Part shown: positions 166 to 13,500 of the stretch, in pieces
Layout of the letters: each line of letters begins with the position of its first letter
How positions within the stretch are numbered: position 1 is the stretch's first letter
Origin: Candidatus Fermentibacterota bacterium
GTDB taxonomy: Bacteria; JAFGKV01
Assembly (NCBI GenBank): GCA_016928395.1
Contig: JAFGKV010000074.1
Span: forward strand, 1 to 13,646
Length of the DNA: 13,646 nt
Reading direction: 5' to 3'
Notes under the pieces: model-generated
Seen by the model: only the letters and a program-made list of their open reading frames with translations
Databases searched by the model: none
What the model was told of the DNA's origin: nothing
Translations under genes and position numbers: made by a program

Positions 166-229
166 TGGCCCCACTCGGTTCTTGCGAGGTACAGCCTCGT
201 CGTGCCCGCCGGATGGAAGGAGGGTTTGG

Positions 230-1327
230 ATGATCCTATCCCCATGGTGTCTTCTCTTCATCGCACTCACCGCCCCGTCAGATCTCACCGTCAAAGATAC
301 TCCCAACGATGAGGGATCCAGCGTCACCCTCCGATGGGTCTTCAATGACGAAACCGAGAGCGCGACGGGATTGTCGATCCTGCGGGCCGGTCCCGGAGAG
401 GAATTCGCCGAGATTGAGCAGCTTCCGGTCGACGCCCGGGAGCACGCGGACGAGTCTGCGACCCGCGATACGCCCTATCGCTATCGCGTGGACGCGGTCT
501 ACCCCGACACCGTTCTGGCAGGGGCAACAAGCCGCGAGACCATGGCAAAGGCCCAGTGGTTCAACTGGGATCGTGCCAATATCCTCGTGGGTCTGTTGCT
601 TTTCACGGGGCTCGTCGTCTACTTCGTCACCAAGGCCCGCAGCGGAGTGCACCTCTTCGTGCGGCGTATCGCCGGGCTCGAAGCGGTGGACGAGGCGGTC
701 GGACGGGCCACTGAGATGGGCCGCGCCATCCTCTATATCCCGGGTACCGGGTATGTGGACAGCATCGCCACCATCGCCTCCATGAACATCCTGGGCGAAA
801 TCGCCAAGAAGGCGGCGGAATACGGCACCCACATCATGGTGCCCAACCGGGATCCCATCGTGTTCACCGTAACCCGGGAAATCGTCAAGGGCGCCTATCT
901 CCAGGTCGGCAAACCCGACGCCTTCGATCCGGATTGCGTCACGTTCGTCGTGGAGAATAGTCTGGCCTATGCCTCTGCCATCGACGGCATCATGGCCAGA
1001 GAAAGGCCGGCGACCATCTTCCTGCTGGGTTCGTTCGCTGCGGAAAGTCTCATCCTTGCGGAAACCGGCGCCTCGGTGGGCGCGATCCAGATCGCGGGTA
1101 CCGATGCGATCACGCAGCTTCCGTTCTTCGTTGTTGCGTGCGACTATACACTGCTGGGCGAGGAACTCTACGCGGCCAGCGCCTACCTCTCCCGCGAGCC
1201 TCTCATGTTGGGCGCGCTCAAAGGGCAAGATTGGGGGAAGGCAATCATCGCGGCGGTGCTGATCATCGCGTCCTTGCTGGCATTGGTCTTCAACGTGGAC
1301 GTCAGTCCCATCTTCCGCTCCCAGTAA
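230..1327 (+). CDS. Gene A: signal peptide, FnIII-like domain, TM and DUF6754-like domain
   Basis: Membrane protein of 365 residues, function unknown. Chosen start: ATG at 230, five bases after an ideal Shine-Dalgarno AAGGAGGG (217-224); it opens with a signal-peptide-like hydrophobic stretch (residues 1-16). Residues about 17-105 look like a fibronectin type III beta-sandwich (a VTLRW strand near the start, YRYRVDAV near the end). A TM segment lies at about 117-134 and is followed by the basic KARSGVHLFVRR, which by the positive-inside rule places the next domain in the cytoplasm. Residues about 140-335 resemble the DUF6754 family as I recall it (SMNILGEIAKKAAEYGTHIMV, later LMLGALKGQDW). 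A final TM segment is at about 338-356. The gene is first of four coupled genes; 12 bp separate it from the next. Sure of the architecture, moderately sure of the family name, no function known. Confidence 0.85.
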   Translation: MILSPWCLLFIALTAPSDLTVKDTPNDEGSSVTLRWVFNDETESATGLSILRAGPGEEFAEIEQLPVDAREHADESATRDTPYRYRVDAVYPDTVLAGATSRETMAKAQWFNWDRANILVGLLLFTGLVVYFVTKARSGVHLFVRRIAGLEAVDEAVGRATEMGRAILYIPGTGYVDSIATIASMNILGEIAKKAAEYGTHIMVPNRDPIVFTVTREIVKGAYLQVGKPDAFDPDCVTFVVENSLAYASAIDGIMARERPATIFLLGSFAAESLILAETGASVGAIQIAGTDAITQLPFFVVACDYTLLGEELYAASAYLSREPLMLGALKGQDWGKAIIAAVLIIASLLALVFNVDVSPIFRSQ

Positions 1328-1339
1328 GGAGGGTCTGCC

Positions 1340-2002
1340 ATGCAACGCAAGCTTCCGCTCGCCCTCCTGATCATCATGGGAATTCTCGGCTTCGCCCAGC
1401 TCTTCAGCCCTCATCCCAGGTGGCAGGATACGCACGACATACTGCGCAATGACATGCTGCGGATCATCGGCGCCTTCGCGTTGATTCTGGGCTTGGGCAA
1501 TCTCCTGCGCGCCCATGTCATGAAAATCCAGCGCCGCGCTCAAAACTGGCCCTACAGTATCGTCACTCTCGTCGGGTTTCTCATGGCCGCCACGATAGGC
1601 CTGTTTGGAGATGGACCTCGCCGAGTGGGCATGTTCAGGACCGAGATCAACGGGTTCAAGTTCGATGATATGACCATCTACTTCCAGATCATCGTACCCC
1701 TGGGCGCCACCATGTTTGCGCTCCTGGCCTTCTTCATGGCCTCGGCGGCATACCGATCCTTCAGGGCAAAGGGCTTCCTCGCGGTCCTTCTTTTGCTCTC
1801 GGCATTCGTGGTCATGCTGGGCCAGGTACCCGTCGGTGCGGCCATAAGCCGTCACTTCCCCGACATCGCCGACTTCATCATGCGCGTGCCCAATACCGCG
1901 AGCAAACGGGGCATCGAGATGGGTATCATTTTGGGGATGATCGCGACCATGCTCAAAATCATGGCGGGTATCGAGCGAAGCTGGATGGGAGGTGGCGAAT
2001 GA
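1340..2002 (+). CDS. Gene B: six-TM protein of the A-D cassette
   Basis: Polytopic inner-membrane protein of 220 residues that I do not recognise. Hydrophobic segments lie at about 6-22, 40-57, 72-90, 112-136, 145-163 and 190-209. The longest loops are at about 91-111 (GDGPRRVGMFR and following) and 164-189. No catalytic motif or known transporter signature is visible. The Shine-Dalgarno AAGGAGGG (1326-1333) overlaps the stop codon of gene A and sits six bases before ATG. The stop overlaps the next start as ATGA (1999-2002), so translation is probably coupled. Its place between two proteins with soluble domains suggests that it is a membrane scaffold or channel subunit of a complex; that is inference. 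Confidence 0.85.
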   Translation: MQRKLPLALLIIMGILGFAQLFSPHPRWQDTHDILRNDMLRIIGAFALILGLGNLLRAHVMKIQRRAQNWPYSIVTLVGFLMAATIGLFGDGPRRVGMFRTEINGFKFDDMTIYFQIIVPLGATMFALLAFFMASAAYRSFRAKGFLAVLLLLSAFVVMLGQVPVGAAISRHFPDIADFIMRVPNTASKRGIEMGIILGMIATMLKIMAGIERSWMGGGE

Positions 2003-2859
2003 ACCTTGCCAAGCTTCTCGTGCTGGATCGGAAGATTATCTTCCTGGTCATGGCCTTGGTCATCGGGATTCCAATCATCGTACCCTTCGGCCTTCCCATT
2101 ACCGTGACTGAGCGTACCCAGAAACTGTTCGACGTGGTTGACGCCACGCCCCCCGACAAGGCGGTGCTGATCTCGACCGACTACGCTCCCCAGACGGAAC
2201 CCGAGCTCCACCCCATGATGTTCTCGCTGCTTAGGCACTGCCTCGCGCGAAAGATCAGGGTCCTGGTGGTAACCCTCTATGTCGAAGCCGGCGGGCTGGC
2301 GGAACAGGCGGTGGAGACCGTCATCAAGGAGTTCAACTCCCGCGCCACGTCCAATGCTGACAGTATCATTTATGGCAGGGACATCGTCTATCTGGGGTGG
2401 CAGCCGCCGCCCATCATTCCCATCTTAGGCATGGGGCGCAGCATTACCGATGTCTACCCCGTCGACTGGTACAAGCAGCCAGTGCCCAGTATGCCCGTGA
2501 TGAATGGCATCAATACCTATGACGACATCAGTATCGTGGTGGCGTTCTCGGGCGGCAGCTCCCCGATCTGGTATGTGCAATTCGCGCAAACCAGATATGG
2601 CGTCAAGGTGGGTGGCGGCGTTACCGCGGTTAGCGTTCCTGACTTCTACCCCTATCTGGAGTCAGGCCAGTTGAGCGGCCTTCTCGCCGGCATGAAGGGA
2701 GCCTCGGAGTACGAGGAACTGGTCGCCACCGTGACCGGAGTGCCCGGGCGACGAAAGGCGACGGAGGGCATGAGTTCGCAATCCGCCGCGCACTTGGCGA
2801 TTATGGCCTTCATCGTCTTCGGCAATATCGGCTACTTCGCCACCAAGAGGAGGCGGTAA
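1999..2859 (+). CDS. Gene C: soluble domain held between two TM segments
   Basis: Membrane-anchored protein of 286 residues, function unknown. TM segments lie at about 12-33 and 263-281; the N-terminus (RK before the TM) and the C-terminus (KRRR) are basic, so by the positive-inside rule the large middle domain may lie outside the cytoplasm. That domain alternates predicted strands and helices in a Rossmann-like manner: KAVLIST (54-60), a helix, then KIRVLVVTLY (85-94), later DISIVVAFSGG (176-186). Its end, PYLESGQLSGLLAGMKGAS, resembles the AYLSREPLMLGALKGQD end of gene A's domain, so the two may be distant paralogues. The gene overlaps B by four bases (ATGA) and D by one (TAATG); the RBS is GGGAGGTGG (1986-1994). 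No catalytic residues can be assigned. Confidence 0.85.
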   Translation: MNLAKLLVLDRKIIFLVMALVIGIPIIVPFGLPITVTERTQKLFDVVDATPPDKAVLISTDYAPQTEPELHPMMFSLLRHCLARKIRVLVVTLYVEAGGLAEQAVETVIKEFNSRATSNADSIIYGRDIVYLGWQPPPIIPILGMGRSITDVYPVDWYKQPVPSMPVMNGINTYDDISIVVAFSGGSSPIWYVQFAQTRYGVKVGGGVTAVSVPDFYPYLESGQLSGLLAGMKGASEYEELVATVTGVPGRRKATEGMSSQSAAHLAIMAFIVFGNIGYFATKRRR

Positions 2860-3545
2860 TGAATATCAGCACAGATCCCTGGGTCTGGGTTGGGGTGTTC
2901 CTGACCCTCTCCATCTTCTCCTTCCTCTGGAAAGAGAACGGGTTCTACCGCTTCGGCGAGCATCTCTTCGTCGGCGTCTCCAATGGTTGGAGCCTGGCCT
3001 TCATGTGGAACAATGTCATCAAGCCCGTGCTCATCGACCGGGTCCACATGACGTTCAAGACCGCGGGCAGCGAAGGCCTCTCATGGAAGCTGTTCGATCC
3101 GTACCAGGATACGAACTTCCTCCTTATCCTCTGGGGCATCATCGGATGCCTCTACTTCACGCGCTTCATCCCCAAGGTCTCCTGGCTCGTGAGAATCCCC
3201 ATCGGCATCTTCATGGGCTACTACACGGGGCTCTCCGTGCCCGCATACTTTCAGGGTTCGATCTTGCCCCAGATGGGCGCGACGGTGCTGACAAGGAACA
3301 GCTTCGCCTCCACCGGCACCGCTGCCGTAGCCGTGCTGGTCTTGATCGGCGTGTTGTGCACCCTGAGCTATTTCTTCTTCTCCAAGGAGCACAAGGGATT
3401 CCTCAAGGGCACTTCCTACATCGGCATCATCTTCATCATGGTGGGCTTCGGCGCATCATTCGGGTTCACCGTGATGGCGCGTATGTCGTTGGCCATCGGG
3501 CGCTTCACGTTCCTCCTGAGGGACTGGCTCGGGCTGGTGCAGTAG
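2859..3545 (+). CDS. Gene D: polytopic membrane protein of the A-D cassette
   Basis: Integral membrane protein of 228 residues, not recognised. Hydrophobic segments are at about 9-25, 35-55, 86-104, 108-128, 153-173 and 184-204. The C-terminal stretch MARMSLAIGRFTFLLRDWLG (207-226) is amphipathic and reads like an interfacial or protein-contact helix. Polar loops include VHMTFKTAGSEGLSWKLFDP (62-81) and the 129-150 region. No transporter or enzyme motif is visible. The start is fixed by the strong Shine-Dalgarno GAGGAGG (2847-2853) and the one-base TAATG overlap with gene C. It is the last gene of the coupled set; a large hairpin follows 19 bp downstream. Confidence 0.84.
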   Translation: MNISTDPWVWVGVFLTLSIFSFLWKENGFYRFGEHLFVGVSNGWSLAFMWNNVIKPVLIDRVHMTFKTAGSEGLSWKLFDPYQDTNFLLILWGIIGCLYFTRFIPKVSWLVRIPIGIFMGYYTGLSVPAYFQGSILPQMGATVLTRNSFASTGTAAVAVLVLIGVLCTLSYFFFSKEHKGFLKGTSYIGIIFIMVGFGASFGFTVMARMSLAIGRFTFLLRDWLGLVQ

Positions 3546-3564
3546 CCCGAAGCCGAAGGTAGAC

Positions 3565-3610
3565 CGGGCCGTGCATCGTGATGCGTTCGTCGCACACGAT
3601 GCACGGCCCG
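3565..3610 (+). terminator. Strong hairpin between the cassette and the phosphatase gene
   Basis: The 16-base arm at 3565-3580 is perfectly complementary to 3595-3610. Inside it, after a single unpaired A, TGCG (3582-3585) pairs with CGCA (3591-3594) around the loop TTCGT, giving 20 base pairs in all. Only a weak T-rich stretch (TGTGTTCTAT) follows, so it may be a partial terminator, an attenuator or a transcript-stabilising structure rather than a full intrinsic terminator. It begins 19 bp after the stop of gene D. Confidence 0.65.
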
Positions 3611-3641
3611 TGTGTTCTATCCCGCGGGGAGAGATAGAGAC

Positions 3642-6248
3642 GTGAGCACGCGGAACACGGGGCCGAATAGGCGTCGGCCATGGGTAGTGGTGATGGTGGC
3701 CCTGTTTCTACTGCCTACCTTCCTCGCCCCAAGTGAAGTCCGCCTCGAGCTGGCGGCCGTCGGCTTGGCCGTGGGGCTGCTCGCAGCCGTGGTGCGCCGC
3801 AAGGATGTGACCGGCGAAACCTGGCGCTTCATCGCCGGGCCGCCCGTGTTTCTCGTGGCCGTAGTAGTGAGCGATCTGCTTTCCGGTGTGCTGGGCGGGA
3901 GGATTCCGCCTCTTCTGCAGGTAGTCGAGCTGGGGCTGAAGTCCCTCGGCCTCGGATGGTCGGTCCTGGCTCTGCTCCGGCTCGGCAAGGGCAGTTGGAC
4001 TACCGCATCATGGCGGGCCGCGGTCCCGGCGCTGATCGCGTATCTTCTGATCTCGGTGAATGCCGGCTCAGCCTCCATCGCGGTGTTCCTGGGCGCGCTG
4101 GCGCTGTGGGGCATTCCCACTCACTGGCTGCACGAGCTGCGAGGCCGCACGGGGAGATGGCAGAAATGGCTCCTCGTGTTGATGACTCCCCTGGCCTTCA
4201 TCTTCGGCTCCTCGATCCGTGCCGCCGGGGATGAGATAAATATCTCCGGTGGAGAACAGACGGCCTCCGGCATTTTGGGAGGTGTTCAGACTCTCCTGCT
4301 CTTCGTCTGGTTGACCCTTCCTGCCCGGCTCCTGCTTCGAAGCTTCCGGCATCTCATGCTGGGGCTTTCCATCAGGATGCGGCTGGTGCTCACCTACGTG
4401 TTCAGCACGCTCCTGCCGGGGTTTCTTGCGTTGGTCCTGGTCGGCGTCGTGGTGTTCGCGGGCATAGGCACCTTGCGGGCGCGCGTGGCCAGCAACCTGA
4501 TCGTGCGTGATCTCGAGACCCTGGCATCGCAGCTTGATCATGGGGTGCCTGGTGCATCCGACCAGCTGGATAGTCTGACCGCCGGTCTCTATGCCCGCGG
4601 CAGAGCGGACACGACGGCAGCAACAGCCGTCGCCGTGCCTTTCGGTCTCGCATCCATTGCTGATTCCCTCCTGAGGAGAGACTTAGGGCCCCTGAACGTG
4701 AACGTAGCAGCCTCCCGGACGGTGGCCGCCACGCCAGAGACATGGATCAAGTTGGCCCAGCGTGGTTCGTGGATCCTGCCCGACACGCTGATGGTTGACC
4801 ACGAAATGCTTTCCGCATCGGGTCGTGGCGCCGCCATCGTTGCCGTCGGTAATGGTGGGGCTGCGTTTGTTGCCGCCGAATCCCTGGAAGCGTCAGATAT
4901 GGTCCACGTGTTGGCACGGCCCCTCAACGAACGGGTGGCGGAAGGTTACAAGAGGATCGTCGGCGCCGATCTCATGATCAGTCCGACCGCCTCCATGCTG
5001 TTCACCCCTGAGGGATCGGAAGTGACCATCAGTCAGAGGGATCAGAAAGGCCCCGCGGCTTCCATATCGACCAGGGCTTCGGTGGGAGGCGGTCTCTTCC
5101 ACCGGCCAATCAGGCAAGGCATCTGCGAACTGCGAGCGACCCAGGATTCCGATCAGGTGAGTCATCTGCGCGGCGTGGTCGTGGTGCGCACCAGCCTCGC
5201 CGGGCTGGTGGGCAGCCTGTTCTCGACCAGGGGCCTCAACCTAGTAGTTGTGGTCGTCGAGGGTGTGCTGGCAGCCCTCATCTTGATAGCCTTGGTGTTC
5301 ACCACCATCATCGGGTTTTCCCTCAATGGCACCATCACCTCGTCCATGGCGGCCCTGAAGCATGGCGCACAACGGCTCAGTCAGGGCGATCTTGATGTTC
5401 GCGTCGAGATACCGGCCCGCGGAGAGATGGGCCGGCTGGCCGAGAGCTTCAATCGCCTTGCCCATGATCTGAAGCGACTCGTACGGCAGGTAGCGGAGAA
5501 GGAACGCCTTGACCGGGAGCTGCAGATCGCGCGGGAGATTCAGGTCAACCTCCAGCCGGGCGTGCTACCGGAGGTAGGAGGCATCGAACTCGCGGCCATA
5601 AGCCGACCCGCTAAGGAAGTCGCCGGCGACTACTACGATGCGATCATGGTGGAGCCCGGAAGGCTGGTCATGGTTGTGGCCGATGCCAGCGGCAAGGGCG
5701 TCGCGGCTGCCATGCTGGTGAGCAACCTTCAATCCGCGTTGCATGTGCTTTTGAGCCAGGATCTTCCTCTGGACACAATCGTTCGTCGCCTCAATAGCGT
5801 CGTGTGCAAGAACTCGCCCGCCGAGATGTTCATTACATTCTTTATCGGCGTGATTGACGCCCAGCGCCTCCGGATCGACTATGTCAATGCGGGCCACGAT
5901 GAGCCGCTTATCATCCGCGGTAACGACACGGTACGGCTCGGTCCCGGCGGATTGCTGTTGGGCATGTTTCCCGAGGCCAGACATGCCATCGGCCACTTCG
6001 ATCTAAAGGTAGGCGACGTACTCACCCTGTACTCAGACGGCGTGACGGAGGCGATGAACGCTTCAGAGGAGGAGTTCGGCGTGGATCGGCTGGAATCCGC
6101 GATCCGGGATGCCCCTGACGCCGATTCGCCCGCCATCCTCTCGTTCGTGTTGGACCGGGTACGGGCCCATACGGGAGATCAGGCCGCCCCCGCCGACGAT
6201 CTCACCATGCTCATCGCCCGGGTGAAGAGTTCCTCGAACGCCTCCTGA
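3642..6248 (+). CDS. Polytopic HAMP-PP2C (RsbU/SpoIIE-type) protein phosphatase
   Basis: Membrane-bound serine/threonine phosphatase of 868 residues. The N-terminal part (about 14-275) has several hydrophobic segments. A large, probably extracytoplasmic, region (about 280-530) of unrecognised fold follows, then a TM (about 531-560), a HAMP linker (about 561-615, MAALKHGAQRLSQGDLDVRV) and a helical signalling segment (LDRELQIAREIQVNLQP). The PP2C catalytic domain spans about 635-865. Its metal-binding acidic motifs are intact: GDYYD (662-666), DASGKG (681-686), YSDGVTEA (797-804) and DDLTML (852-857). This family usually dephosphorylates a STAS-domain anti-sigma antagonist, but none is encoded here. 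Start: GTG at 3642 with GGGGAGAG (3626-3633) eight bases ahead; an in-frame GTG at 3612 abuts the hairpin and lacks such a site. It lies 96 bp after gene D and has no obvious promoter of its own. The family is certain; the substrate is unknown. Confidence 0.93.
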   Translation: MSTRNTGPNRRRPWVVVMVALFLLPTFLAPSEVRLELAAVGLAVGLLAAVVRRKDVTGETWRFIAGPPVFLVAVVVSDLLSGVLGGRIPPLLQVVELGLKSLGLGWSVLALLRLGKGSWTTASWRAAVPALIAYLLISVNAGSASIAVFLGALALWGIPTHWLHELRGRTGRWQKWLLVLMTPLAFIFGSSIRAAGDEINISGGEQTASGILGGVQTLLLFVWLTLPARLLLRSFRHLMLGLSIRMRLVLTYVFSTLLPGFLALVLVGVVVFAGIGTLRARVASNLIVRDLETLASQLDHGVPGASDQLDSLTAGLYARGRADTTAATAVAVPFGLASIADSLLRRDLGPLNVNVAASRTVAATPETWIKLAQRGSWILPDTLMVDHEMLSASGRGAAIVAVGNGGAAFVAAESLEASDMVHVLARPLNERVAEGYKRIVGADLMISPTASMLFTPEGSEVTISQRDQKGPAASISTRASVGGGLFHRPIRQGICELRATQDSDQVSHLRGVVVVRTSLAGLVGSLFSTRGLNLVVVVVEGVLAALILIALVFTTIIGFSLNGTITSSMAALKHGAQRLSQGDLDVRVEIPARGEMGRLAESFNRLAHDLKRLVRQVAEKERLDRELQIAREIQVNLQPGVLPEVGGIELAAISRPAKEVAGDYYDAIMVEPGRLVMVVADASGKGVAAAMLVSNLQSALHVLLSQDLPLDTIVRRLNSVVCKNSPAEMFITFFIGVIDAQRLRIDYVNAGHDEPLIIRGNDTVRLGPGGLLLGMFPEARHAIGHFDLKVGDVLTLYSDGVTEAMNASEEEFGVDRLESAIRDAPDADSPAILSFVLDRVRAHTGDQAAPADDLTMLIARVKSSSNAS

Positions 6249-6261
6249 GCCCGTGCTCAGG
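6244..6261. terminator. Hairpin holding both convergent stop codons
   Basis: CCTGAGC (6244-6250) pairs perfectly with GCTCAGG (6255-6261) around the loop CCGT. The TGA of the phosphatase (6246-6248) lies in the left arm, and the TGA of the minus-strand lipoprotein gene (6257-6259) in the right arm. A shared bidirectional terminator is plausible, but no T-run follows on either side, so intrinsic termination would be weak. Confidence 0.45.
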
Positions 6262-6571
6262 GAACCCCCGTGTGCGTCTCTGTCGTGTTGAAGGTGGAGG
6301 AGACCAAGACACCGCGGTCATCGAACCGGGCCACCAGGTCGGTGGCCGACGAGCCCGAGAAGAGGCTCCACCTGTAGCGCGCATAGGTCCACGTCACCAG
6401 CCCATTGTCGAGCCCGGTGCGCCATGGCTGCCCGAGCATGTTGATCACATCCGCCTGGGTGGTGACCCCCGGTGTCAGATCCGCTACACGGTCCACGGCG
6501 AACCGCCGACCCACACCGGCGCAGGCCATGACCACCACAAGAGTCAGCAATACCCGGATTCTCGTTTTCAT
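6257..6571 (-). CDS. BamE/SmpA-like small lipoprotein
   Basis: Predicted lipoprotein of 104 residues. The N-terminus MKTRIRVLLTLVVVMAC is a signal sequence with a lipobox ending at Cys17, so the mature protein is probably lipid-anchored in the envelope. The rest resembles the SmpA/OmlA (BamE) fold: the DLTPGVTTQADVINMLGQPW signature (31-50), then the strands LVTWTYARYRW and a closing strand DLVARFDDRGVLVSSTF. In BamE such a domain supports outer membrane protein assembly; many stand-alone relatives are uncharacterised, and no other Bam component is near, so the role is open. Start supported by AGGAGG (6580-6585) eight bases ahead of ATG. It is convergent with the phosphatase gene and lies 126 bp downstream of the efflux operon on the same strand, so it may be its distal gene. 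Confidence 0.78.
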   Translation of the reverse strand: MKTRIRVLLTLVVVMACAGVGRRFAVDRVADLTPGVTTQADVINMLGQPWRTGLDNGLVTWTYARYRWSLFSGSSATDLVARFDDRGVLVSSTFNTTETHTGVP

Positions 6572-6697
6572 GCCCGTATCCTCCTGACCAAGGGAGCCGG
6601 GATGCCCCGTGCGCCTATCTCCAAGAAGAAGCCCACCGTGCGCCGATCGCGCCCCGGCCTCCTCTTCACCTCTTTCCTTCTTTGCCTCTTCACTCCC
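6572..6697. other. Spacer between the efflux operon and the lipoprotein gene
   Basis: The 126-bp gap holds no gene. Next to the permease stop, 6657-6697 is almost pure pyrimidine on the plus strand (polypurine on the transcribed minus strand). CCGTGCGCC occurs twice (near 6607 and 6639). I find no clear terminator or promoter, so read-through from the permease gene into the lipoprotein gene is possible. Confidence 0.5.
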
Positions 6698-9600
6698 CTA
6701 CCCCTTCCTTCGCGCCCTGAGCCGCTCGACCCAGGTCTCAAAGGATGCGTAGAGCGCCGGGATCAGGAACAAAGTAAACACCGCGCTGATCAGCACGCCG
6801 CCGATGGTCACCACGGCCATGGCCACCCGGAACTCCGATCCCGCGCCGCCGAGAGCCTGGGGGATCATGCCCACCGCGATGGCGAGATTGGTCATGACGA
6901 TGGGCCGCAGCTTCACCGGGCACGCATCCAGAATGGCTTCGTTCATACTCAGCCCGTCCCGGCGCCGCACCGCCACATAGTCCAGCAGGAGGATGGCGTT
7001 GTTCACCACGATGCCCACCAGCATGATCATGGCCATGAGACTCAGGATATTCACCGTCTGTCCCCCGAAAAACAGGGCGATCGCGGCGCCGATGAGCCCC
7101 AGCGGCAAGGTGATCATGACCGTCACCGGATGGATGAACGACTCCAGGATCATGGCGAGCACGACATAGGTGAGGATGACGGCCATGCCCATGGTCTCGA
7201 ACAGCGATGCGAAACTCTCTTCCTGCATCTCGTAGGAGCCGGCGAAACGAATCCGGTAGCCGGCGGGCAGGGAGAGCGCGTCGGTTCGGGCCTGGATGGC
7301 ACGCACGGCCTCGCTCACGGTCCCGCCGGCTAGGTTGGCGGCAACGGTGATGCGGCGCTGCCTGTCGCGGCGCTGGATCTCCGATTCGCCTCGCCGTTCT
7401 TGGATCTCCCCGAGTTGCGTGAGCGGGAGCCGGTCTGGCCCCAACGGAAGGCGGAGGGCCGAGAGCCCCGCCACATCACCGCGATCCGCATCGTCATACT
7501 GCACGCGGATGGCATACTCCTCTCCCGCGTCGCGGAAGACCGCCTGATCGTCACCCTCATAGGCATTTCTCAGGAGCATGGCGACCGCCGCGGTGGAGAG
7601 CCCTCGACGGGAAAGCTCCTCCCGATTCGGAATGAACCGCAACTCCTGGGCTCCGGGCTCCCAACTTGATTGCACATCCACCACGCCCGGTGTCGCCGCC
7701 ACGATGAGCTCGACCTCAGCTGCCACAGCACGCAGCGGCTCGGTTTCCCACCCCAACACTTCGATCTCCAGATCCGAGGTCGAGTGGCCGACTCCCTGCG
7801 AGCTTGACACAGACACCGTGGCGCCCGGCAGCCCCGCAAAGGTGGCGCGAAGCTGATTGGCCAGCCCATGGTCCGAGATGCGGCGCTTCGAGGCGGGTAC
7901 TAGCTTGCCCAGGACAACCGCCTCGTTGACGCCCTTGTCTGATCCTCCAACGGTGCTCAACACCGAGGCCACATTCGGTTCCTCGGCAAGCCTTGCCTCC
8001 ACCTCGGCGACCAATCGGTCCGTCTGCGCCAACGAGGTTCCGGCCGGGAGCTTCAGGTTGATGGTGACGGTGCCCTGATCCATCCTGGGCATGAACTCGC
8101 CGCCGGAGAACGCCAGGAGCACGAAGCTGAACACCAGCATCAGAATGGTGACCGCGCCGAGAATGACGCGGTTGCGCCCTCTCGCCAGAGCCCAGGCCAG
8201 GGCCGTTCGATACTGACTCGCCAAGTGCACCATCATACGGTCCACCAATCGGGCGGCCATGTGCAAGTCGCCCTTGTCACCTTGCGGCGAGTGTCCTTCG
8301 CCTGGCCTTCGGACCCGTTTCAGCACGATGGAGGCCAGCATGGGAGTCAGGGTGAATGAGACCACCACAGAGAACAGCGTGGCGTATACGACGGTCATGC
8401 CGAACTGGAGGAAGAATCTGCCGATGATTCCCCGCATGAACGCCACCGGCACGAATACCACGATGTTGGTCATCACCGAGGCGAACACCGCCAGGGCGAT
8501 CTCGTCCGTACCCTTGATGGCGGCCTCATCCGGAGGCTCACCCAGATCCAGATGGCGGATGATGTTCTCGAGCACCACGATGGAGTTGGTGACAAGAATG
8601 CCTACTGAGATACCCAAGGCCATGAGCGTCAGGATGTTGAGGGTGAAGCCAGATGCTTCGACGAGCAGGAAGGTTGCCACGATGGCGGCTGGCATGACGA
8701 TGGCCGCGACCACGGTGACGCGCACATTGCGCAGGAACAGATAGAGGAGAATCGAAGTCAACACAATGCCGATGAGCATGTTCTGCTGCACATCCTTGAC
8801 GGCATCGCGGATGAAGGTCGAGTTGTCATCGGCATACTCGATTTCGAAGCCTTCGGGAAGCTCGCGGCGCAGGTCGTCCACTGCCTTGTAGATCCCGTCG
8901 GCGGTGGCAACGGTGTTGGCGCCTGACTGCTTGATGATGTCAACCTGGACCGCGGGCGTGCCGTTGAACCGCGCCACCGAGCGACACTCCTCGTAGGTAT
9001 CGCGGATATCCGCCAGGTCCCGTAGCGGGATGAACCCATGCTCACCCAAGGGGATCTTGATCGTGCCGATCTCCTCCAGTGACGCGAACTCGCCGACGGT
9101 CCTGACCATGTACTCCCGCTCGCGCTGCACGATTCTTCCCTGGGGAATGTTCAGGTTCTCGGCGGCGATGGCCCCGGTGATCGCCGAGATGGGGAGGCCG
9201 TAGTGTTCCAGTTTTCGCCGATCCGCCGCCACCTGAATCTCGCGACGCTGGCCGCCGATGATGTCGACGTTCGCCACGCCTGAGACCTGCACCAGCCGGT
9301 CACGAATGAGGCGGTCGGCCACCGCGTAGGTCTCATTGACGGGGCGATCGCTGGACACCGAGAGAGAGACGATGGGGAACGCGCCGATCTCGAACTTCTG
9401 GACTTTGGGTTTCTCCACCCCGGAGGGCAGGCCGCTGAGAATTGCGTCGACCTTGGCGCGCACGTCATTGGCCGCTTCGTTGGCATTCACCTCCAACTTG
9501 AACTGCACGATCACGAAGGAAACACTCTCCCGCGAGTATGACTCGATGCGGTCGATATCCGACATGGTGCTTACCGCATCTTCGATCTTCTGCGTGACCT

Positions 9601-9784
9601 GTGTCTCCATCTCTTCAGGGCCTGCGCCGGGGTAGATCGAGGTGATCATCACCACGGGGAACTCCACGTTCGGCATGAGGTCGATCACCAGCCGGCGGTA
9701 GGAGTAGGCCCCCAGCAAGACGAACGCCGCGGTCAGCATGGTCATAAAGACCGGGCGCCGGACAGAAAGCCTGGATATGAGCAT
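6698..9784 (-). CDS. RND efflux permease (HAE1/AcrB-like) with altered proton relay
   Basis: Inner-membrane pump subunit of 1028 residues, the normal size for AcrB-type permeases. It has the family plan: TM1 (about 10-28), a porter-domain half, a TM2-6 block (about 335-485), TM7 (about 540-560), the second porter half, and TM8-12 (about 865-1015). Family motifs include FPVVMITSIYPGAGPEEMET (42-61) and SFTLTPMLAS (476-485). TM4 reads GILVTNSIVVLEN where AcrB has GLLVDDAIVVVEN, so the paired aspartates (D407, D408) are Thr399 and Asn400. TM10 reads VGIVVNNAILLLD, so the lysine (K940) is Asn928. The pump would carry drugs, lipids or other hydrophobic substrates; which one cannot be read. It starts six bases after the adaptor stop, with AAGAGG nine bases ahead of ATG. 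The family is certain; the energy-coupling residues are unusual. Confidence 0.96.
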   Translation of the reverse strand: MLISRLSVRRPVFMTMLTAAFVLLGAYSYRRLVIDLMPNVEFPVVMITSIYPGAGPEEMETQVTQKIEDAVSTMSDIDRIESYSRESVSFVIVQFKLEVNANEAANDVRAKVDAILSGLPSGVEKPKVQKFEIGAFPIVSLSVSSDRPVNETYAVADRLIRDRLVQVSGVANVDIIGGQRREIQVAADRRKLEHYGLPISAITGAIAAENLNIPQGRIVQREREYMVRTVGEFASLEEIGTIKIPLGEHGFIPLRDLADIRDTYEECRSVARFNGTPAVQVDIIKQSGANTVATADGIYKAVDDLRRELPEGFEIEYADDNSTFIRDAVKDVQQNMLIGIVLTSILLYLFLRNVRVTVVAAIVMPAAIVATFLLVEASGFTLNILTLMALGISVGILVTNSIVVLENIIRHLDLGEPPDEAAIKGTDEIALAVFASVMTNIVVFVPVAFMRGIIGRFFLQFGMTVVYATLFSVVVSFTLTPMLASIVLKRVRRPGEGHSPQGDKGDLHMAARLVDRMMVHLASQYRTALAWALARGRNRVILGAVTILMLVFSFVLLAFSGGEFMPRMDQGTVTINLKLPAGTSLAQTDRLVAEVEARLAEEPNVASVLSTVGGSDKGVNEAVVLGKLVPASKRRISDHGLANQLRATFAGLPGATVSVSSSQGVGHSTSDLEIEVLGWETEPLRAVAAEVELIVAATPGVVDVQSSWEPGAQELRFIPNREELSRRGLSTAAVAMLLRNAYEGDDQAVFRDAGEEYAIRVQYDDADRGDVAGLSALRLPLGPDRLPLTQLGEIQERRGESEIQRRDRQRRITVAANLAGGTVSEAVRAIQARTDALSLPAGYRIRFAGSYEMQEESFASLFETMGMAVILTYVVLAMILESFIHPVTVMITLPLGLIGAAIALFFGGQTVNILSLMAMIMLVGIVVNNAILLLDYVAVRRRDGLSMNEAILDACPVKLRPIVMTNLAIAVGMIPQALGGAGSEFRVAMAVVTIGGVLISAVFTLFLIPALYASFETWVERLRARRKG

Positions 9785-9789
9785 GGAAA

Positions 9790-10971
9790 TCAGCCTCTTG
9801 TGCCCGCAGGCGTGTAGTACTCTGCTGTCATATCCTTGTGGATGGCGAGCTTCACGCCGTCTTCAAGCTTGTTCTGGCCAACTACCACGACCCGTTCGCC
9901 GGGAGCGATACCCCTGGCAACGGACACCAATCGGCCATTCCTGACCCCGGTGGTCACGGTGCGAAGGGCCGCCTTCAGAGAGTCGCCATGGGAGGTGACA
10001 ACGTAGGCAAGCTGATCACCGTTGCGCTGAAACAGAGCAATCGGCGGGACTGCGGGGAGATCCTGTGACGCTGCGACCAGTATCTCCGGCGAGACCAGCA
10101 TGCCGGGTTTCAGACGCCGATCGGTGTTCTGGACCACGACCTCCACACTGAAGAGCCGGGAGGAGGCGTCAGTGCTGAGCGCGGCCTTGGTCACCGTGCC
10201 TGTAAGTGTCACCTCGTCATTGACGGCGGCTGAATCCACGGCCATGCTCCCAGGGCTACACGAACGGTTCACAAGCCCCGGGCCGCGCAGCCTGATTCTC
10301 ACCGGTTGGCCGGCCTCGATGGATGTCCTCTCCGATGCGCTGACAGTGAGGGGGACTCTGATACGGTCAAATGAAGCCACCGTAGCCACCACTTGCCCGG
10401 CATCAGCGTAGTCGCCGGGGTTGACATAGGTTGCGGTGACGACGCCGCTGATGGGAGTATCCAGACGCACTGCCCTTCCCGACATGACATAGGCGGAACG
10501 AGCCGCTTGGGTGGCGGTTCGTACCCGATCCAGATCCTGCACCGAGACCGCCCCGGTCTTGTAGAGCTCCTCGATGCGGATGCTGTCGTTTCGCGCCGTA
10601 CGGTAGGAAGCCTCGAGGGTCTGGAGGTTGGTGCCAAAACGCACGGGGTCCAAGGGGTCCAAGGAGACGATGATCGCGCCCTTGCGTACCTCGGCGCCAA
10701 CCTGGGCGCGCACCTCGGTGACCCTGCTCCGATAATCGGATATGAGATCGACCTGCTCTATGCCCTGGGCAATCCCCGTGAACTCCCGCCAATCCTCCAC
10801 CACGGCAACCCGTGCCGTCACAACATCCACCGGCACTCCCAGCCTCTCCTGGATCTGCGCAATGCTCTCGACGGTTTCCCGACGCAGCCGGCGGGTTCCC
10901 GTGATCACGAATGCGATCACCAGGACACCTGCCGCCACCGCCCATAGTACTGTCTTCGTAGACTTGCTCAT
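9790..10971 (-). CDS. RND efflux periplasmic adaptor (membrane fusion protein)
   Basis: Adaptor of 393 residues linking the permease to the outer membrane factor. An N-terminal TM anchor (about 8-24) with no lipobox holds it in the inner membrane. The split lipoyl-like domain is seen as VTEVRAQVGAEVRKGAIIVS (84-103) and LDTPISGVVTATYVNPGDYA (170-189), enclosing a short helical hairpin (about 110-165). A beta-barrel part (about 205-300, ending RRLKPGMLV) and a membrane-proximal part (about 305-375) follow. The start codon overlaps the stop of the TolC-like gene (ATGA), with AGGAG (10980-10984) as binding site, so the two are translationally coupled. The permease gene follows after five bases. 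Family assignment is firm. Confidence 0.95.
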   Translation of the reverse strand: MSKSTKTVLWAVAAGVLVIAFVITGTRRLRRETVESIAQIQERLGVPVDVVTARVAVVEDWREFTGIAQGIEQVDLISDYRSRVTEVRAQVGAEVRKGAIIVSLDPLDPVRFGTNLQTLEASYRTARNDSIRIEELYKTGAVSVQDLDRVRTATQAARSAYVMSGRAVRLDTPISGVVTATYVNPGDYADAGQVVATVASFDRIRVPLTVSASERTSIEAGQPVRIRLRGPGLVNRSCSPGSMAVDSAAVNDEVTLTGTVTKAALSTDASSRLFSVEVVVQNTDRRLKPGMLVSPEILVAASQDLPAVPPIALFQRNGDQLAYVVTSHGDSLKAALRTVTTGVRNGRLVSVARGIAPGERVVVVGQNKLEDGVKLAIHKDMTAEYYTPAGTRG

Positions 10972-12419
10972 TGGCCTTTCTCCTGTCCTCTGGGGCCACC
11001 CGATTCGATCGTCTCAGTAGCGGCGCCGGCGGTCCTGCCCAATGCCCGCTCCAGGGTGGCCACCGCCACATTGTACCGATAGAGAGTCTCCGCGTAGTTC
11101 GTCCTCGCGAGATTGAGGGCGAGCTCGGCATCGTTCAGCTCCAGTTGGGTCGAAATGCCGCTCTTGAACCGGGTTTCTGCGATCCTGAACATGTCCTCGG
11201 CCAACTCCACCGTGGCCCGCTGCGCCTCGTACTCCCTGGTCAATCCCTGCAGGTCCTGCACCGCACGGGTCACATCCAGTCGAATGGCCTTCCGTGCCTG
11301 AGCCTGCTCGAACCGGGCCTTGAGCAGCGCGGCGCGGGCCTGTTGAACCTTGCCTTTGGTCCGGAACCCATCGAAAATCGGGGCGCTGAACACGACTCCT
11401 GCGGAAATCGACACCTGGCTGTTTTCATCGAATGCCGCCATGAGATCATCCTTGTTCGCCTGGCCTTGAAGGCTGACCTGGCCGAATGCGCCCACTACCG
11501 GCAGCATGTTGGCCTTGTAGATGGCCAGCACCCGCTCTTGACCGAGGACATTGAGATCGAGAACCCGCATCTCCGGCCGGTTCTGCTCCGCCTCAGCCCA
11601 CGCGCCTTTCATTTCCGCGGTCATGGGCTCGTACCCCAGCGTGTCGACCAAAACCGGATTCTCTTCATCGATGATACCCACGATGCGCTTCAAATCCTGG
11701 AGGGCCAGAGCCATGGCGTTCTCGGCCCGGATCAGATCGGGTGCCCGATTCTTGGCTTCAACCTCGGCCCGCTGTAAGGCAAAACGGGATTCCATGCCCT
11801 GAGTGTGCTTTTCCTGGATATCATCGAAATGAGACCGGGCCTGCTCGAGGGCCTGGCGTTGGATCTGAACGAGCTTCTCGAGAAGCAAAACCCGGTAGTA
11901 CGCCTCGGTCACACCGAACACCACATCGCTTTGCGCCTTCTTGACACCCACTCCGGCCATTTTCCGGTAGATGCTCGCGAACTTGACCGCATTGCCCACG
12001 CGGCCGAAGGCGTACAGGGTCTGATCCAGGCGGAGGGCGCCGGCGAACTCCGTATCGGAGCCAATCTCGATCTTGACGGGGCCATTGCTGGAGTTCTCGC
12101 CATTCTCCCCACCGTTCGCCGAATCCTCCCCGCCTCCGAAGAACTCGGAGGGCAGGAAGAAGGCGGGCTTCTTGAAGTTGCCACTGTACTGCGCCTGCAG
12201 GGCAATGCTGGGTAGGGCGCCCGCATAGGCTTCGGTCACTGCGCCTGCGGCCTTTCGTTCGTCCTGCTCTGCGATGAGAATCTGCTCATTGCTGGCCAGG
12301 GCCAGAAGCCGGGCATCGTCCAGGGACAAAGTCCGCGCGGCAACATCGCCGGGGCGGGCAAAAGCCAGAGAGAGAAGCAAGAGCAGAAGCATCCGTCCAC
12401 ATCTCCAAACTCCCGGCAT
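10968..12419 (-). CDS. TolC-like outer membrane efflux protein
   Basis: Outer membrane channel of 483 residues. The signal peptide is MPGVWRCGRMLLLLLLSLAF with a likely cleavage near ARPGDVAA, then TLSLDDARLLAL, the usual start of the family. Two repeated outer-membrane-efflux (OEP) halves follow: long coiled helices (AYYRVLLLEKLVQIQRQALE; then AIRLDVTRAVQDLQGLTREY) and the strand signatures GALRLDQTLYAFGRV and VVFSAPIFDGFRTKG. A Gly/Asn/Glu-rich insert (95-113) sits in the first extracellular loop. I chose ATG at 12419, nine bases after GGAG; a longer frame from 12518 would overlap the regulator and hide the signal peptide. It lies 43 bp downstream of the regulator gene and overlaps the adaptor by four bases. 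Confidence 0.94.
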   Translation of the reverse strand: MPGVWRCGRMLLLLLLSLAFARPGDVAARTLSLDDARLLALASNEQILIAEQDERKAAGAVTEAYAGALPSIALQAQYSGNFKKPAFFLPSEFFGGGEDSANGGENGENSSNGPVKIEIGSDTEFAGALRLDQTLYAFGRVGNAVKFASIYRKMAGVGVKKAQSDVVFGVTEAYYRVLLLEKLVQIQRQALEQARSHFDDIQEKHTQGMESRFALQRAEVEAKNRAPDLIRAENAMALALQDLKRIVGIIDEENPVLVDTLGYEPMTAEMKGAWAEAEQNRPEMRVLDLNVLGQERVLAIYKANMLPVVGAFGQVSLQGQANKDDLMAAFDENSQVSISAGVVFSAPIFDGFRTKGKVQQARAALLKARFEQAQARKAIRLDVTRAVQDLQGLTREYEAQRATVELAEDMFRIAETRFKSGISTQLELNDAELALNLARTNYAETLYRYNVAVATLERALGRTAGAATETIESGGPRGQEKGQ

Positions 12420-12462
12420 CCAACATGTCTCCGCGGAAAGCCGTGTCTTCGCGGCAGAAGTC

Positions 12463-13110
12463 TTACGTATTCTCGGGCGCGAAGGCCCGAGTGATAGTCC
12501 GAACGATGGTCGGTGCATAGTCAGTCCACTTTTCCTTTTTGGCTGGATCGAACCAGCTCACGAGATTCCTGGCCACGAAACCCCACAGAAGTGCGCGGAG
12601 AGTTGCGGTGACGACGGACGGGTCGCCCCGCGCTAAGACTCCTTCATCCATCGCTTCCTGGAACAGGGCATTCAGCCTTTCCTGTAGGATGGCCTCATGT
12701 CGTGAGACGTCGGCCGCGATCGTCTCACGCGTACGGGCAAGGGTCAGTATGGCGCCTAAATAGTTGGATGCGAACGCCGGGTTGTTCTTGAACCAGGTAG
12801 ATACCCCACGGACCACGGCACTGATCCGGTCTTCCACCGAGCCACGTCGTGCAATGTGGGCCGTGACCAACTCCTCCAGCTCGTCGTACCGATGTTTCAG
12901 CAACGAGGCATAGATCTCTTCCTTGCCGGCGAACAGCTTGTACAGGTAGCCCACGCTGAACTCTGCGGAAGCCGCGATTTCCTGCACTGTGATGTCATGG
13001 TAGAGCCGGTGCTCCAAGAGCGACTCGGCGGCCTGCAGCGCCTCGAGTCGGTGCCGTTCCCGCTCCCGCTCCTTCCGCGGGAGGGCATGCATGGGATCCG
13101 AATATGTCAT
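12463..13110 (-). CDS. TetR-family transcriptional regulator of the efflux operon
   Basis: DNA-binding repressor of 215 residues. The TetR-type helix-turn-helix is at about 38-62 (ITVQEIAASAEFSVGYLYKLF, then GKEEIYASLL), preceded by a basic N-terminal arm (PRKERERERHR). The C-terminal, all-helical part (about 80-210) would bind the inducer and dimerise; its ligand is unknown. I prefer ATG at 13110, ten bases after GAAGG; an in-frame GTG at 13146 adds twelve residues and has no good binding site. The regulator is the first gene of the efflux operon, so it very likely represses itself and the pump together, with derepression by a pump substrate. The 8-2-8 palindrome at 13218-13235 is the natural operator candidate. 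Confidence 0.93.
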   Translation of the reverse strand: MTYSDPMHALPRKERERERHRLEALQAAESLLEHRLYHDITVQEIAASAEFSVGYLYKLFAGKEEIYASLLKHRYDELEELVTAHIARRGSVEDRISAVVRGVSTWFKNNPAFASNYLGAILTLARTRETIAADVSRHEAILQERLNALFQEAMDEGVLARGDPSVVTATLRALLWGFVARNLVSWFDPAKKEKWTDYAPTIVRTITRAFAPENT

Positions 13111-13217
13111 CAGGATGCCGCCTTCATTCAACTCCACGGGGCACACGAGGCCTAGCGAATCACTGCCTCCGCTGCCATAACCACACGGGGGGCGTCAACT
13201 GGAATGGGTGTTCGACA

Positions 13218-13435: not shown

Positions 13436-13500
13436 CTACGACTACGACAACAATGTCGACAACGATTACGACAACGATAGCGATACCGACCCCGATCCGG
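13436..13500 (+). repeat. Degenerate GAC/ACG trinucleotide-rich tract
   Basis: The tract repeats imperfect units such as TACGACAACGA, GTCGACAACGATTACGAC and CGATACCGACCCCGAT. In one frame it would encode an Asp/Asn/Tyr-rich peptide, but that frame has no start context or family, so I treat it as a low-complexity intergenic repeat. Confidence 0.6.

Follow-up and report, generated by a model that had tools for sequence, protein, structure and literature searches.

A DUF6754 membrane gene cassette and its S-M-E partner genes across bacterial phyla

The window considered here is the whole 13,646-nt stretch of contig JAFGKV010000074.1 (assembly GCA_016928395.1), and our subject is a run of four genes, A to D, on its + strand at 230-3545. 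An earlier note on this DNA had described them as a four-gene membrane cassette. Genes A-D are real as a unit, and their arrangement recurs among bacteria far beyond chance, but the cassette is incomplete: three further genes, S, M and E, found on contig C93 in the source genome, had been missed. S, M, E and A-D very probably form one system. Its function can be read in several ways, among which we prefer, with a probability of roughly 0.45, an ATP-driven mechanism of the cell envelope in which a membrane complex of A-D is powered through M. The suggestion that the system is undescribed held up as well. A-D match no characterised complex, and they co-occur even where they are unlinked.

Conservation of the cassette and its partner genes

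The source genome encodes six DUF6754 proteins, the family to which A belongs. Five of their genes, including the one in the window, stand in complete A-B-C-D cassettes of the same order, the sixth runs off its contig, and an extra B-C-D set lies on contig C262. Beyond this genome, at least 566 relatives were confirmed in named genomes, the best 80 of which come from Eisenbacteria, WOR-3/Stahlbacteria, Latescibacterota, Edwardsbacteria, Poribacteria, Zixibacteria, Fermentibacteria, Armatimonadota and others. In the loci read, which span many candidate phyla, 89 cassettes are complete, and the gene order is indeed kept across distant genomes. A is followed by B in 98 of 110 cases, B by C in 94 of 99 and C by D in 89 of 95, many of the exceptions being contig ends. 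Another A follows D in 22 cases, and two or three cassettes often stand in tandem. Furthermore, the distance matrices of A, B, C and D correlate with r values of 0.65-0.82 (permutation maximum 0.12 or less), which argues that the cassettes evolve as units.

Co-occurrence was analyzed in a sample of 145 distantly related bacterial genomes, of which nearly all represent different families. A is present in 39 of them (about a quarter) and C in 40; B and D each occur in 41. Every one of the 39 A-positive genomes encodes all four proteins. This co-occurrence is more than linkage, since the genes are scattered over the single contig of genome G138, with A at ~294 kb, D at ~2,303 kb, B at ~3,480 kb and C at ~3,526 kb. 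One small phylum, in which A was found in 10/10 genomes examined, had a single member in the 145-genome sample, which suggests that the sample holds about one genome per phylum. No homologue of A was found in plasmid and phage collections. Most carriers of the system belong to uncultured lineages, and none of the 14 well-known control genomes searched has it, which would explain how it could be missed. Cultured hosts exist nonetheless: Chloroflexus aurantiacus and Herpetosiphon aurantiacus each encode S-A-B-C-D-M as a single gene run, and genomes have been published for strains J-10-fl (PMC3150298) and 114-95 (PMC3368417), respectively.

The three partner genes recur upstream of A and encode proteins of about 100-130 amino acids (aa; S), about 620 aa (M) and about 375 aa (E). 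They share an operon with A-D in many phyla, and the orders seen include S-M-E-A-B-C-D, A-B-C-D-S-M-E, S-A-B-C-D-M-E, S-A-B-C-D, E-A and C-D-M. Of the 39 genomes with A, 36 also encode E, which is missing from all 106 genomes without A (Fisher p 6e-31); matches to long MutL proteins, the type of M, track nearly the same genomes, the others having mostly none or distant MutL relatives. Similarly, in a second sample of 199 genomes from one large phylum A occurs in 49, E in 47 and both in 44 (Fisher p 9e-35). Per genome there is about one full-length M and E, compared with one to seven paralogous A-D cassettes.

M-E fusions of about 1000 aa recur in several genomes. The source genome has two, of about 950-1010 aa, both on the - strand (C331:567-3386, locus L142; C20:16834-19638, locus L143), beside its single separate M and E genes, and similar ones are found in G001, G002, G083 and G117. 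Such fusions may pair with particular cassettes. A very divergent locus in G095 (L161:7148-12656) reads S, a MutL-like gene (n485), an A-like gene (n243), B, C and D; by eye, the two genes beside B, C and D look like a divergent A and M beyond the reach of the profile search.

In the source genome S-M-E lies directly behind the genes of a complete glycine cleavage operon, gcvT-gcvH-gcvPA-gcvPB (L141:2500-11140). Fermentibacteria and other lineages share this arrangement (L043, L045, L054, L056, L063, L079, L081, L088, L089, L139 and L140). As functional clues, both these neighbours, which recur in several lineages and are missing in many, and the aroK-aroB neighbours in Poribacteria, which are limited to that lineage, were set aside.

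Domains, topology and layout of the locus

A is assigned to DUF6754 (PF20539) with an E-value of 3e-112 and 374 bits against a gathering cut-off of 27, and its AlphaFold2 model is confident (predicted local distance difference test, pLDDT, 93). Profile, fold and Pfam matches agree with the earlier suggestion of an FnIII and a DUF6754-like domain in this protein. The FnIII part matches titin FnIII in a profile search (E-value 1e-19) and superposes in VIA-align with Z 12.9 and a root-mean-square deviation (rmsd) of 2.0 over 92 aligned residues. FnIII matches fill the fold-search list of A, and for this reason the DUF6754 domain has barely been tested by fold. In the core of A, putative pocket positions are invariant (C304-D305, G310-E311-E312, E272 and R257).

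C, with a pLDDT of 95 and a predicted template-modelling score of 0.90, is modelled as a six-strand Rossmann-like domain between two transmembrane (TM) helices. Many unrelated Rossmann families match it equally well, with Z up to 9.2, and its similarity to RCK/TrkA domains (Z 9.0, rmsd 3.5 over 134 residues) is tied with such families. The soluble domains of A and C have an identical order of six strands and helices; profile comparison detected no homology between them (3% probability), so that a common origin is only possible. Likewise, relatedness of B and D was not detectable by profile comparison. The fold searches with A and C returned no match indicating an enzyme class.

TM prediction assigns two helices and a likely signal sequence to A, six helices to B, two to C and six to seven to D, in which the possible seventh hydrophobic segment lies at the C-terminal end. 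This agrees with the earlier description of four membrane proteins, two with a soluble domain between TM helices and two with about six helices each. Together they would make up an inner-membrane complex of about 16 TM helices. Judged by charge bias across the families, the soluble domains of A and C probably lie on opposite sides of the membrane, in the cytoplasm and the periplasm, respectively.

Among Pfam, NCBIfam, PHROGs and PADLOC, only DUF6754 matched A-D above cut-off; B, C and D fall into no Pfam or NCBIfam family by this measure, and the only match to a profile of known anti-phage defence systems (PADLOC, 2023 library) was that of D at an E-value of 0.1. When profiles of the A, B, C, D, M and E families were run against PDB sequences, matches were limited to the FnIII part of A and a KOW-like C-terminus of E (E-value 0.008). 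B and D had been described as free of any transporter signature, and sequence searches of Pfam, NCBIfam and the PDB gave no transporter match above cut-off for either.

Pfam PF13941 places M in the MutL/GlmL superfamily (E-value 1e-128, 430 bits against a gathering cut-off of 27). Its ASKHA nucleotide motifs DCGSTTTK, DIGGATTD and GSGG are kept in nearly all members, and identity to the source-genome copy is 60-72% in most sampled genomes. Judging from these motifs, M probably binds and hydrolyses ATP. It scores 242.6 bits against the GlmL equivalog NF040745 (cut-off 475) and 192.7 bits against TIGR01319 (cut-off 204.05); because it stays under the equivalog cut-off, M is a relative of the glutamate mutase accessory family and not a member. 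B12-dependent mutase subunits were seen in none of the neighbourhoods read, no genome-wide search having been made. E is weakly similar to the RnfC barrel-sandwich domain PF13375 (source copy E-value 1.8e-4, 21.9 bits, gathering cut-off 25.6), and weak RnfC_N-like similarity is found in 16 of 20 E members. In S, which matches no family, a hydrophobic stretch is conserved (PAIMFLESxKPLSFLGSQ).

The core subunits of the system share roughly 45-70% identity between phyla. Large inserts fall in segments of A-D predicted to be extracytoplasmic: the stretch of A that precedes the first TM helix is missing altogether in some members and reaches about 640 aa in others, and inserts sit between TM3 and TM4 in B, between TM4 and TM5 in D and just before the last TM helix in C. 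In Chloroflexota, C reaches 1480 aa and has a very long, repetitive N-terminus rich in PDWL/AWL (L171:3395-7837, L172:4123-7194, L177:9070-13410 and L151:10079-12199). The repeats resemble a series of short binding motifs, and their position before TM1 predicts that these extensions are cytoplasmic. One locus (L154, on G123:C38) has a single A, B and D but encodes C four times, with three consecutive copies downstream of D, and L055 likewise carries an extra C; C may form homologous hetero-oligomers.

Within the window, A-D are one tightly coupled operon closed by a strong hairpin (Table 1). The junctions and Shine-Dalgarno sites noted earlier are present in the sequence, with a GGAGG-type site before each of the three junctions.

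Table 1. Features of the A-D locus (window positions) and of proteins A and C (residues)
Feature	Position	Strand	Basis or description
Shine-Dalgarno-like site of A, AAGGAGGG	214..224	+	sequence
Gene A	230..1327	+	open reading frame (ORF); Pfam PF20539, FnIII, AlphaFold2
A-B junction, 12-nt gap with AGGAGGG site (TAA..AGGAGG..ATG)	1325..1339	+	sequence
Gene B	1340..2002	+	ORF; six TM helices, N-in/C-in; conserved family alignment
B-C junction, ATGA overlap	1999..2002	+	sequence
Gene C	1999..2859	+	ORF; two TM helices around Rossmann-like domain; AlphaFold2
C-D junction, TAATG overlap	2857..2861	+	sequence
Gene D	2859..3545	+	ORF; N-out, with six or perhaps seven hydrophobic segments; family alignment
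Hairpin behind D, probable terminator	about 3562..3615	+	minimum free energy -45.8 kcal/mol, z -6.57
A, extracytoplasmic FnIII	about residues 13-111		behind likely signal sequence; profile and fold
A, TM helices	residues 113-137 and 324-354		flank the DUF6754 domain
A, predicted cytoplasmic DUF6754 domain	residues 150-321		six-strand, Rossmann-like
C, TM helices	residues 11-27 and 253-285		
C, probably periplasmic domain	residues 55-246		Rossmann-like

Downstream of D, at 3642-6248 on the + strand, lies a gene for a multi-TM HAMP/SpoIIE (PP2C) phosphatase. It is probably a separate unit because the strong hairpin lies between it and D, and it was rejected as a fifth member on account of this hairpin and because it does not recur beside other cassettes. 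The - strand at 6257-13146 encodes, by ORF reading, a TetR - TolC-like - HlyD-like - RND efflux operon that looks ordinary. Behind it comes a small gene for a BamE-like lipoprotein (PF04355, below cut-off). Short degenerate repeats of 7 and 12 nt (CTGAACC; ACGATTACGACA) occur at 69-99, at 13438-13478 and near the end of locus L008. They lie near contig ends, and contig C187 ends in a similar D/Y/S-rich translation; these may be dispersed intergenic repeats that break the assembly.

Possible functions

As far as sequence and gene order go, the proposal of the earlier note that A-D belong to a single membrane complex is borne out. In the mechanism we favour, A-B-C-D would be one inner-membrane complex working with cytosolic S, M and E. 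S and E would dock M at the cytoplasmic face, on the domain of A and the cytoplasmic N-terminus of C, and the ATP cycle of M could then drive a conformational change across B and D to the periplasmic domain of C and to the FnIII part of A, which varies. The output would be ATP-driven work in the envelope, for example transport or assembly, with the extracytoplasmic parts selecting the targets, and one shared S-M-E module would serve all paralogous cassettes of a cell. Somewhat more tentatively still, S-M-E and A-D might represent an unrecognised class of ATP-powered, envelope-spanning machines that spread early among bacteria, in which a single MutL-type ATPase module would power several paralogous complexes of four membrane subunits, distinguished mainly by their outer domains.

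Several points weigh against this mechanism. The physical association of A-D, M and E and their fixed stoichiometry are inferred from the genes, and the topology of A-D is drawn from charge bias only. Three A-positive genomes of the 145-genome sample (G032, G060 and G079) have no E, and G009 has no match to a long M. M is often encoded apart from A-D, also in the source genome, and some Chloroflexota copies (G062) have degenerate phosphate motifs, which would fit a structural role there. Finally, no sequence match links B or D to a known transporter.

The main rival to transport or assembly is a membrane-bound enzyme, in which a cofactor or metabolite would bind in conserved Rossmann-like pockets of A (cytoplasm) and C (periplasm), with M as maintenance or reactivation ATPase. 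GlmL is thought to play this role for B12-dependent glutamate mutase, and the strong PF13941 match of M, the invariant putative pocket of A and the gcvT-H-PA-PB genes adjoining S-M-E in the source genome and several other lineages all fit. Yet M stays far under the GlmL cut-off, the S-M-E neighbourhoods read showed no mutase subunits, fold matches indicate no enzyme class and the gcv linkage is missing in many lineages; we regard this explanation as unlikely. Less probable again is an envelope sensor, in which FnIII and the periplasmic domain of C sense the outside and A relays to M and E within. Its appeal lies in the variable outer N-terminus of A over a conserved cytoplasmic core, and in paralogous cassettes that recall receptor families; no regulator, kinase or cyclase recurs beside the cassettes, however, and two six-TM subunits with an ATPase exceed the needs of a relay.

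We consider it very improbable that the system is a surface or gliding-motility machine, despite its combination of ATPase, TM subunits and extracytoplasmic domains. Gliding is, to our knowledge, not general in the two other phyla concerned, the large one with the system in 49 of 199 genomes and the small one that has it throughout. What speaks for this idea is the presence of the system in the gliding Chloroflexota Chloroflexus and Herpetosiphon, whose gliding genes are unidentified (PMC3368417). Coupled junctions alone are no proof of a complex, and chance or hitchhiking might in principle keep four independent genes together. Their complete co-occurrence, also in unlinked positions, constant order across phyla and correlated evolution already contradict this, leaving it next to no probability.

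Relation to known systems

The Pfam entry for DUF6754, of which A is a clear member, describes the domain only, with no function, partners or system. DUF6754 is named in no open-access paper that we found, subscription journals and preprints not being covered, and we found no open-access paper linking MutL-like proteins to such a membrane complex. The GlmL/MutL accessory proteins (PF13941, TIGR01319 and NF040745) have the same ASKHA core and nucleotide-binding motifs as M. M differs in its length (about 620 versus about 460 aa), in scoring under the cut-offs, in travelling with a membrane complex and in its ability to fuse to E. Long MutL proteins, likely annotated as glutamate mutase accessories, are thereby reassigned to a membrane system.

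E shows weak similarity to the RnfC/NqrA barrel-sandwich domain but differs by its KOW-like C-terminus, and no membrane subunits of Rnf or Nqr were recognised, B and D being unrelated to the known ones. The match of C to TrkA/RCK and other Rossmann domains is one of generic fold, and the domain of C is predicted to be periplasmic. PilM-PilN-PilO and similar systems pair a cytoplasmic protein of the actin-fold ATPase family with membrane subunits that carry soluble domains. To M and A-D they offer an analogy of working principle; the subunit make-up differs, and a sequence relation was neither found nor expected. The individual folds (FnIII, ASKHA, Rossmann-like and barrel-sandwich) are thus known, while the whole apparently matches no known kind that we found. 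The seven-gene system likely does something basic, and with a defined gene set, S, M, E and A-D, and cultured hosts with complete genomes, its function is directly testable.

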